Source of the DNA: an uncultured Candidatus Saccharibacteria bacterium | GTDB lineage: Bacteria; Patescibacteriota; Saccharimonadia; Saccharimonadales; Saccharimonadaceae | Direction of reading: 5' to 3' | Assembly: GCA_947304335.1 (NCBI GenBank) | Contig: CAMZAW010000004.1 | Span: 1 to 33,237 of the forward strand | Length of the DNA: 33,237 nucleotides | Shown: piece after piece, positions 28,107-32,300 of the stretch | Layout of the letters: each line of letters opens with the position of its first letter | Numbering within the stretch: position 1 is the first letter of the stretch | Position numbers and translations under genes: made by a program | Notes under the pieces: model-generated | Databases searched by the model: none | What the model was told of the DNA's origin: nothing | Seen by the model: only the letters and a program-made list of their open reading frames with translations

Positions 28107-29060
28107 TTATTTATTAAGCTCATCTTTAATCAAATCGAATAGTTCTGGAAACTCTTCGAGCCCACTCTTTTTACCCATGTGGCCAATACCACGAATCAAT
28201 ATTGGCTTGGCGCCGATTTGTTTCGGAAATTCCTCCAGGACATCAAACGGAACGAGATGATCGTTGTCGCTGTAAATCGCATAACGTCTACTTGTTGATT
28301 TCTTAAATAGCTCAATTTGTTTGTCGTTCACTAAAAACTTTTCAACAGCTGTATTTAGCACGTCTTTACCTTCGTTGTAATATGTTTTCGCAAAACCTGC
28401 CAAGCCGATATATGTTCGGACTTTGTAATTCTTTTCGGCAAAATATCGAATCAAAAACTCGTTGCCGATGGAGTGACAAACCACAATTGATCCAGTCTGA
28501 ATACTATCGATATATTGGTCGAAAATTTTTGCCCAGTCTTCATAGATTGTGCCTTCCTGCGGTGGAAAGCTCGGCATGATTACGTCGATGCCTTCATCTT
28601 CTAATCTGCTTTTCAACCACTCAAACATTTTTGGGATACCATTAATGCCATGGATTAGAATTACATTTCTGACATAATGAATACCTTTGATATTTCTATA
28701 TATTGCTGAAACAAAGTATAAAAGTACGGTGAGCGCAATCGAGATAGAACATAGTTTTTCTTGTAGAATGCCATACGAATCAGGGAACAGATTCACGGCT
28801 CTCATACGAGGGCCAACGTCGTAGCTGTCAGTGAATATTAGTGCGGCAAACAAAAAGAAAAACGTCGTAAGGTAATACAAAACATAATCGACAGCAGTCT
28901 TTTTTGGCAGCCCGGCAAATCTAAATCCAGTTACTATATAAAAAACGAAAAACAATATGACAAATGGCGCACCGAAAGCCGTAATAATACCAAATGTCAT
29001 GGACTTAAGAGCGATAAAGATCATCGCGAATATTATTGTTAGTATTATATATAGAGCCAT
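28107..29060 (-). CDS. Alpha/beta hydrolase (RBBP9/YdeN-like) with N-terminal multi-TM domain
   Basis: Start set to MALYIILTIIFAMIF (29060) with SD AAGGAT; hydrolase part RNVILIHGINGIPKMFEWLKSRLEDEGIDVIMPSFPPQEGTIYEDW...VVCHSIGNEFLIRYF...DNDHLVPF...GIGHMG. Confidence 0.82.
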   Translation of the reverse strand: MALYIILTIIFAMIFIALKSMTFGIITAFGAPFVILFFVFYIVTGFRFAGLPKKTAVDYVLYYLTTFFFLFAALIFTDSYDVGPRMRAVNLFPDSYGILQEKLCSISIALTVLLYFVSAIYRNIKGIHYVRNVILIHGINGIPKMFEWLKSRLEDEGIDVIMPSFPPQEGTIYEDWAKIFDQYIDSIQTGSIVVCHSIGNEFLIRYFAEKNYKVRTYIGLAGFAKTYYNEGKDVLNTAVEKFLVNDKQIELFKKSTSRRYAIYSDNDHLVPFDVLEEFPKQIGAKPILIRGIGHMGKKSGLEEFPELFDLIKDELNK

Positions 29061-29129
29061 GTTTTTATCCTTGTGTTTATTATACCATAGGCCCTCAGCG
29101 CCAAAGGGCATTGGTGGTATAATTAAGAC

Positions 29130-30073: not shown

Positions 30074-30093
30074 CGTCGCGCGCCATTTTCCAC

Positions 30094-30123
30094 TTGCCAA
30101 AATGGATCGGGGGGGGGTACAAT
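30094..30123 (+). promoter_or_regulatory. Promoter with G9 tract in the spacer: TTGCCA-N18-TACAAT
   Basis: TTGCCA 30094-30099, G9 30109-30117, TACAAT 30118-30123; SD AAGGA and ATG 30150 downstream. Confidence 0.65.
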
Positions 30124-30149
30124 AAAAGTACATAATTAAGGAAAATGTC

Positions 30150-30806
30150 ATGAAGGCAGAAAGCTTGAATTTAGAAAATAATACGTCTGATGCACACGAA
30201 GTTGTGTACGACGGTAGAAAATTCCAGGTGGAAGTGGATGAAAACGGCCGCATTAGCCAGGCTAGGCACGAAGGAAGGGTTAGGTCTAAAGGCGAATATA
30301 CTGGCGACATTATAGTAACGGGCGCAACCAATAAAGATCTCACTGAAGGAAGCATTCCAGCAACGGTGGGCACAAACAAAACATATGACACGATAGCTTT
30401 TCAATATAGAGCATTCGCAGACAACGACGCAATAAGCCACCCTCACGTAGAAGGTGAAGTACAATTTTGGGATAATGGTGAGATGGTAGGTCAGAGCCGT
30501 TTCAAAATTGACGGAGAACACAATGTGGTCGATAACTCCCCGTTAGATGGTTTTTCTAATGAGCTAAAATCCGTTATGCGTGGCGACGATAGTTCTATGT
30601 ACTATGCACAAGAAATGATTGGAAAAACAGTATCCGAAGTTGAACAAGAACAATCCGAAATGCAACAGTATTACGAGCAAGAGTCAAAGTCTGGCATAAA
30701 TGATCTTTCTGCGATGGCTGATAAATTCGACCCAGAAAAAGCGAAAAGGGAAAAACTCGGCAGGCAAATACTCAGTAGTGACAATTTTAATCAACCAAAA
30801 GAATAA
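30150..30806 (+). CDS. Hypothetical soluble protein (218 aa)
   Basis: SD AAGGA, long single ORF; no recognised family. Confidence 0.72.
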   Translation: MKAESLNLENNTSDAHEVVYDGRKFQVEVDENGRISQARHEGRVRSKGEYTGDIIVTGATNKDLTEGSIPATVGTNKTYDTIAFQYRAFADNDAISHPHVEGEVQFWDNGEMVGQSRFKIDGEHNVVDNSPLDGFSNELKSVMRGDDSSMYYAQEMIGKTVSEVEQEQSEMQQYYEQESKSGINDLSAMADKFDPEKAKREKLGRQILSSDNFNQPKE

Positions 30807-30807
30807 C

Positions 30808-30843
30808 AAAAAAGAATTCCCCCGGCGAAAGCTGGGGGAATTC
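30808..30843 (-). terminator. Strong hairpin terminator oriented for minus strand
   Basis: GAATTCCCCC (30814-30823) / GGGGGAATTC (30834-30843) with GCGAAAGC inner loop; the A-run at 30808-30813 is a T-tract on the minus strand, whereas the plus side has only TCTACC. Confidence 0.75.
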
Positions 30844-30851
30844 TCTACCTC

Positions 30852-30880
30852 TTGACAAAACGGGTATTCTTTGATACAAT
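30852..30880 (+). promoter_or_regulatory. Near-consensus sigma70 promoter TTGACA-N17-TACAAT
   Basis: TTGACA 30852-30857, TACAAT 30875-30880, exact 17-nt spacer. Confidence 0.8.
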
Positions 30881-30886
30881 GAAATT

Positions 30887-30940
30887 ACTTTCGGGAATAC
30901 CCGCGTTCCCCATGCCGCAAGGCCTGGGGCATATTTTTTA
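30887..30940 (+). ncRNA. Candidate small RNA (~54 nt): two hairpins plus U-tract
   Basis: Hairpin 1 CGGG-AATA-CCCG (30892-30903); hairpin 2 CCCCA-t-GCC-GCAA-GGC-c-TGGGG (30908-30929); T6 at 30934-30939; no plausible ORF. Confidence 0.5.
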
Positions 30941-31327
30941 CTTATATAATTTCAAAAATGCGTTTTTAACGATAACTAAATCTGTATCAGGGACTTGGCC
31001 GATTCTTGTGAATAGTCTTGATGTACTCATAACTCTGGCCTGGCTGATTGCAGCAAATTGAACTCTTCCGAGAAAGGTAAAGCTAACGTACCAAGGGCCA
31101 GTTTTTTCTTGTGTCGTTAATGGAATACCCATAAAGCCACGATAGCCCAGCTTCTTCATGACTAAAACTGGTCGCGAAAAACGAGATCCTTTGCCGTTAA
31201 TTTCCACGCCAACGTTTTCTCCGCACCCACACCACCAAACATCGCCATCACTAATTCTTGGGGCCGAAGCACCAAAATGAAGTCTTTCTTTTAGTTTCAC
31301 CCAACTATCAAAGTGTTTTTCTTGCAT
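30938..31327 (-). CDS. PemK/MazF-family toxin-like protein, no adjacent protein antitoxin
   Basis: ISDGDVWWCGCGENVGVEINGKGSRFSRPVLVMKKLGYRGFMGIPLTTQEKTGPWYVSF...AAISQARVMSTSRL; PemK/MazF motif order. Confidence 0.82.
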   Translation of the reverse strand: MQEKHFDSWVKLKERLHFGASAPRISDGDVWWCGCGENVGVEINGKGSRFSRPVLVMKKLGYRGFMGIPLTTQEKTGPWYVSFTFLGRVQFAAISQARVMSTSRLFTRIGQVPDTDLVIVKNAFLKLYK

Positions 31328-31385
31328 TTGCCGCGATTGTAGACCGTCGCCACGTATATTACAACCCCCACCAGCAAAACTAAGC

Positions 31386-32300
31386 CTAGGCAGTTTGGGC
31401 TGTGCCGCGTGCCATTTTCATAATTTGTTTGCGCAGTAGGAAATTATCAAGCATCAACAAATCACTTTGCGTGGCTTCTATGTCAAAAATTTTTTCCAGT
31501 CTTTGCTTTACACCGTCACCGCCAAAGTAAATGTAGCTTTTGCCGTCTTCAAGTGAAATCACATTCATCATCCATTCTGAATACTCAGCAAAAACTTTTT
31601 TCATTTCATCAAGATTAAAACTATTTATATTCAGCACAATCATTTGGCCGATAACTTCTGGCAAATCGCCGGCTTTCTCGATTTTTAAGTCATCTTTAAT
31701 TGCCTTGGCAAAATCCTTCATGATTTCAGCCTCGCAAGCCGAAAAATATTCTGCATAAAAATCGCTAGAAACGTTGCCGATTTTTAGCAGCTCATTATAA
31801 GTAACGCGATCACGTTCCGTAGTGATGCTGGATTTTAAATTTAATGTATTATCCAGAATCCCAGCAATCAAAAGTTTGCAAAGATCGGTGTCTAGGATTT
31901 CGGTATGATTTTCGTGAACGATTTTTTCATAGATAATCGTACAAACCGAACCAATAAATTCGATTTCGGTTTTAATATTTGGAAAAGCCGTCCAATAACT
32001 TTCGAAGCCAGAATGGTGGTCGACGATTTCAATTACATTTTCAATTTTGATTCGCTCGTCAAAGAAATCTGGATTCGAAACATCAAGCAGAATATATTTG
32101 CTATCATCGGCCGCAGCGGAATCGTCAAAACTATATTTTAAATTCAGGATCAGCGGTGGCACACTTTGATTAAGCCTGGCCGTGGTAGAAGCCGTAACAT
32201 TTGGATTGCCCTCAGCTTTTAGCAACTCACGATATGCGATCATGCTGGCGTAAGCATCAATATCTATGTATTTGCGCCCAGAAGTAATGACGATATTCAT
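31386..32300 (-). CDS. DHH-family phosphoesterase (Mn-dependent inorganic pyrophosphatase-like)
   Basis: DIDAYAS, LLDVSNP, VDHHSG, AGILDNTLNLKSSITTERD, C-terminal LLRKQIMKM; TGTTATAAT-N6-ATG. Confidence 0.85.
   Translation of the reverse strand: MNIVITSGRKYIDIDAYASMIAYRELLKAEGNPNVTASTTARLNQSVPPLILNLKYSFDDSAAADDSKYILLDVSNPDFFDERIKIENVIEIVDHHSGFESYWTAFPNIKTEIEFIGSVCTIIYEKIVHENHTEILDTDLCKLLIAGILDNTLNLKSSITTERDRVTYNELLKIGNVSSDFYAEYFSACEAEIMKDFAKAIKDDLKIEKAGDLPEVIGQMIVLNINSFNLDEMKKVFAEYSEWMMNVISLEDGKSYIYFGGDGVKQRLEKIFDIEATQSDLLMLDNFLLRKQIMKMARGTAQTA

Follow-up and report, generated by a model that had tools for sequence, protein, structure and literature searches.

Does a run of nine G residues between two promoter-like hexamers make the promoter of a Saccharibacteria gene phase-variable? 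The run lies in a 33,237-nucleotide contig of an uncultured Candidatus Saccharibacteria bacterium (CAMZAW010000004.1; the whole of this stretch is the DNA that was analysed and is called the window here), and a preliminary description had proposed that slippage in the run, which makes up half of the spacer, alters the spacing of the promoter in front of a hypothetical gene.

A G tract within a candidate promoter

Re-reading the sequence placed both hexamers, 18 nt apart, and the nine-G run abutting the -10 exactly where that description had put them, and the downstream gene does have a Shine-Dalgarno-like sequence of its own. The features are as follows.

30094..30099, plus strand: -35 element TTGCCA, read from the sequence, with one mismatch to TTGACA
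30100..30108, plus strand: non-G part of the spacer, AAATGGATC, 9 nt, read from the sequence
30109..30117, plus strand: G9 tract, where slippage is proposed to occur; no run of G or C in the window is longer, and sister sites have G7-G17 here
30118..30123, plus strand: -10 element TACAAT, read from the sequence; sister sites in other species have this hexamer after their G tract
30138..30142, plus strand: Shine-Dalgarno-like AAGGA, read from the sequence, 7 nt before the ATG at 30150
30150..30806, plus strand: gene for a 218-aa orphan protein, an ORF without relatives and without family matches above the cut-off

The 18-nt spacer consists of AAATGGATC followed by G9. The claim that this is the longest G tract in the window holds, the runner-up among runs of G or C being one G6 within an ORF, and a first-order Markov model predicts 0.017 runs of at least nine G in the window. 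Pattern searches of the whole genome (608 kb, 74% complete) returned only six independent runs of G or C of at least 7, and the promoter described here is the only one in that genome with a spacer tract of G≥7. The hexamers and their spacing are unconvincing by themselves because such pairs turn up often: allowing one mismatch in each hexamer gives 24 of them in the window. As far as sequence can tell, what lifts the site above chance is the position of the G tract directly against the -10, together with the recurrence of this arrangement across species.

Recurrence of the promoter class in the genus and beyond

When the sequence around the site was searched against DNA of the genus, the promoter stretch was matched before unrelated genes in five other species, for example as TTGACAAAAAGGGTC-G10-TACAATTAAAAGTA and as TTGACAAAATGTGTC-G9-TACAAT. 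Of 174 genomes of the genus, 61 contained the pattern G7TANNAT (G≥7), at about 100 sites in all, compared with 19 for the reversed pattern, and when TTGAC was required in front the sites again exceeded the control several times. TTGAC lies at most 26 nt upstream at 60 of the 98 non-redundant sites, where 2.0 would be expected after shuffling. The architecture of the class is TTGAC[AT], a short spacer, G7-17 and TANNAT; the commonest non-G spacer length in the sister promoters is 9 nt (20 of 66), and -35 variants TTGCC and TTGCA like that of the window recur at sister sites (e.g. L275, L082 and L065). The window promoter is, by these sequence features, a member of a class that is repeated through the genus, mostly before genes for surface proteins. 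As to conservation of the tract in relatives, a check that the preliminary description had called for, the same architecture recurs genus-wide, and the window locus itself is empty in the relative G112.

We note that a leader such as ATAAGCATAAAGGTTATAC, just after the -10, is common to many of the G-tract promoters, ahead of different genes (L236, L238, L239, L258, L272, L086 and others). More assemblies than expected end no further than about 100 bases from a G-tract promoter (G137:C19, G125:C9, G169:C21, G173:C7, G074:C47/C48 and G152:C12), which would fit disruption of assembly by tract length or by repeated copies of the promoter. G7-TTGTAA, a candidate for a second class in the window's genome, was rejected as a genus-wide class, with 4 sites in 170 genomes and 1 in the control.

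Outside the genus, the plain pattern is only mildly enriched in the order (36 sites versus 13 in the control, 252 genomes), where L316, L318, L320, L322, L329, L330 and L340 are likely members of the class. A scan of the phylum with TTGACN{4,10}G8TANNAT, a pattern that undercounts long tracts, yielded 10 sites, spread over 9 of 380 genomes, and none in the control. In GTDB, 40 of the 115 matches listed for G8TACAAT have TTGAC upstream (1.9 expected); many of these precede signal-peptide proteins, in taxa such as Treponema, Clostridia and Gemella. The layout TTGAC, G8-13 and TACAAT was seen in other phyla (Treponema, Clostridia, Gemella, Streptococcus and others; L123, L134, L145, L172, L184, L223, L225 and L228), and the TTGAC/poly-G/TACAAT layout is apparently a widespread convergent design.

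Spacing, tract length and the reading of the site

Ordinary TTGACA/TATAAT promoters without a G tract in the same DNA have a 17-bp spacing in 14 of 19 cases, and a looser TTGAC[AT]-TANNAT set, also without a G tract, contains 45 pairs at 17 bp and no more than 8 at any other spacing. The spacing of the G-tract promoters of the looser pattern, by comparison, is spread over 14-22 bp (p=0.0002 for the 17-bp share in ordinary versus G-tract TTGACA/TATAAT pairs); because G-tract sites were picked by tract and -10 alone, their spacing was not selected. The scatter arises because G7-G17 tracts vary between near-identical copies. Such copies, otherwise the same, carry G15 and G10 in one genome and G10 and G9 in another; G11/G10 (G030) and G17/G16 (G137) likewise occur within single genomes, and related copies in different species have G12, G11 and G9. 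All of these lengths come from draft assemblies, which can misstate the length of a homopolymer.

Homopolymers are unstable in cells that lack mismatch repair. A search for MutS1 (TIGR01070) had no match in any of 60 genomes of the genus and was positive in 11 of 14 control genomes, and with no MutS found the tracts should be unstable.

The proposal that the promoter is phase-variable is supported by the recurrence of the class, the differences in G number between copies, the spacing scatter, a bias towards surface proteins among the genes behind the class and the failure to find MutS. We consider it likely that a poly-G tract prone to slippage, placed directly against the -10, sets the spacing of this sigma-70-type promoter and gives stochastic switching or tuning; the G9 site would then probably act as an on/off switch driven by slippage, of the sort found in Neisseria. 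Replication slippage would add or remove G residues and so bring the -35/-10 spacing on or off the 17-bp optimum; with G9 the spacing is 18 bp, and it would become 17 bp if one G were lost and 19 bp if one were gained. The shift would then switch or tune transcription of the downstream gene stochastically, from cell to cell. That tract length switches within a single population, and that this alters transcription, is what we infer from these patterns. Weighing against the reading are the mismatch in the -35, the untypical gene downstream and the lack of any other such promoter in the window's genome.

The site could instead be an ordinary fixed promoter in which the G tract serves as a strength tuner, an operator or a structural element of species-stable length, which we regard as unlikely; length differences between species or paralogues would then reflect slow divergence. 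The 18-bp spacing of the window promoter would be functional in itself, and some sister pairs keep equal numbers of G (L290/L291 and L081/L245). Moreover, G length and non-G length partly compensate (Spearman -0.38), which indicates that total spacing is loosely held rather than free. However, tract lengths differ within one genome between copies with nearly identical flanks, spacings from 14 to 22 bp would be needless for a fixed operator in a genus whose ordinary promoters keep to 17, and the failure to find MutS also speaks against fixed lengths. It is much less probable still that the tract is an assembly or sequencing artefact, produced by two-colour-chemistry poly-G or a collapsed homopolymer: some sister sites do lie at contig ends or beside N runs, or in one case show an implausible G31 (L286, L062 and L238), but the window tract is 3 kb away from the contig end, flanked by a -35 on one side and by a -10 and an intact gene on the other, and the same architecture is present in many independent assemblies from different studies.

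Downstream genes, known switches and the variable segment

The hypothetical gene that the preliminary description had placed behind the promoter encodes an orphan of no known family. Homologues of the 218-aa protein were absent from 59 relatives, the GTDB genome contigs and the viral contigs, and a hydrophobicity rule detected no signal peptide. Pfam matches to AcrF8 and DUF2553 (E about 0.01, below the cut-off) were taken as chance, and the AlphaFold model, of low confidence (mean pLDDT 43), was left out of fold searches.

An N-terminal hydrophobic segment, as in signal-peptide or membrane proteins, is present in 37 of 51 genes behind G-tract promoters, versus 72 of 278 control ORFs (p=5e-10). 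The 51 genes are those that have a -35 in front, a start codon that comes early and a product of at least 150 aa; the control is made up of every long ORF at these loci, including some that are not genes, and the hydrophobicity rule is a simple heuristic rather than a signal-peptide predictor. Family matches are of surface types, namely FISUMP, List_Bact_rpt, DUF285/PARCEL, LRR/InlJ, pectate-lyase-like adhesive domain, SpaA and papain, and the genes of the class are predicted to encode mostly surface proteins, LRR/internalin-like and adhesin-like ones included. A minority are non-secreted proteins, several of which begin with a short N-terminal motif such as GWDSLSEVPF. The window orphan falls within this non-secreted minority but is without such a motif, and, being an orphan without a signal peptide, it is not a typical target of this class of promoter. 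Written as W[DE]xV/L... and in many cases with PFxG after it, the motif stands ahead of unrelated bodies, some of them GNAT-like (L064, L066, L072, L075, L085, L087 and L267); a shared N-terminal motif of this kind could be a localisation or export signal.

In meningococcal porA, a poly-G tract in the -35/-10 spacer controls transcription, one G more or less altering the spacing (PMC3899988). The window class resembles porA in having its poly-G tract within the spacer, and differs from it in phylum and in gene, in that the tract always abuts the -10, in its recurrence across many species of a genus with reduced genomes, and in being known here from sequence alone. At the window site the G tract lies between a recognisable -35 and -10, as in porA; variation of tract length around the 17-bp optimum is seen class-wide, the window locus being a single copy. 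Two further porA-type traits are not strictly defining: a permissive repair background is present in the genus (MutS1 in 0 of 60 genomes), and the typical surface or host-interaction gene is enriched in the class, the window gene itself being without a signal peptide. In Haemophilus hifA/hifB, TA repeats in the spacer set promoter spacing (PMC3899988); there, too, repeat number sets the spacing of a promoter for surface structures, although the repeat is a dinucleotide in a bidirectional promoter, whereas the window class has a single-base G tract and acts in one direction. Slipped-strand mispairing has been invoked in a CPR bacterium for a hypervariable repeat gene of Gracilibacterium BD1-5 (PMC6851277), where the repeat array lies in a coding region and not in a promoter spacer. 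No report of such a promoter switch in Saccharibacteria, Patescibacteria or TM7x was found in open-access full texts, which cover few subscription journals, and this Gracilibacterium coding repeat is the nearest CPR precedent in that literature. The proposed switch is of a known kind, in a lineage without a record found in the open-access literature.

On balance we favour the view that this genus of ultra-small Saccharibacteria without detectable MutS has a dispersed phase-variable regulon. About a third of its species would carry poly-G spacer promoters, 1-5 in each genome, and these would stochastically switch surface adhesin-like proteins and a set of small non-secreted proteins. Saccharibacteria live as epibionts on other bacteria and also occur in animal guts, and to our knowledge little is known of how they vary their surface. 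If the regulon reading is true, it would amount to an epibiont contingency system directed towards host bacteria, phages or the animal host, and the recurrent poly-G class would point to the likeliest candidate genes for such control. The class has a simple signature (TTGAC, 4-9 nt, G7+, TANNAT) that occurs in other phyla too, and it makes phase variation in CPR bacteria testable from existing reads, through the G lengths at about 60 listed promoters.

The window promoter lies within a segment that is absent from G112, the closest relative (laccase protein 84% identical), in which the DHH gene directly follows the 3' end of the laccase gene. Three further features define the segment.

30078..30090, plus strand: left 13-bp flanking repeat, GCGCGCCATTTTC, from the empty-site comparison with G112
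31407..31419, plus strand: right 13-bp flanking repeat, GCGTGCCATTTTC, from the empty-site comparison with G112
30938..31327, minus strand: PemK/MazF-like gene (PF02452, E=5e-8), a neighbour and not part of the promoter

Compared with G112, the window holds 1,329 bp extra (30091-31419, one copy of the repeat included), containing the G-tract promoter, the orphan gene and the PemK/MazF-like gene; the 13-bp repeat has these two copies and none elsewhere in the genome. The 1.3-kb segment looks like a small insertion, or like the product of a repeat-mediated deletion in G112, and gain in the window and loss in G112 fit the comparison equally. Because the segment is absent from G112, the orthologous tract at the window locus is beyond comparison. 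That the hexamers and G tract are a non-working relic at the edge of an inserted segment would suit this absence, the 13-bp flanking repeats and the orphan gene, but we give this idea the least credence of all, given that the 218-codon ORF is intact with its Shine-Dalgarno sequence at the proper distance and that the promoter matches the recurrent class down to TACAATAAAAGTA in other species.

A second stretch missing from G112 lies at 28107-29129 and carries a hydrolase-like gene (PF06821), with collinear flanking genes. At 30852-30936, a short hairpin and then a terminator lie behind a consensus promoter (TTGACA-17-TACAAT), and the interval contains no ORF, which makes this a possible small RNA directed towards the 3' end of the PemK-like gene. 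Rfam matches near 30.8 kb were far below gathering scores. Elsewhere in the window's genome, a C7 run (L006; G000:C8, about 480-600) forms the loop of a long inverted repeat that sits just past an apparent tRNA 3' end.
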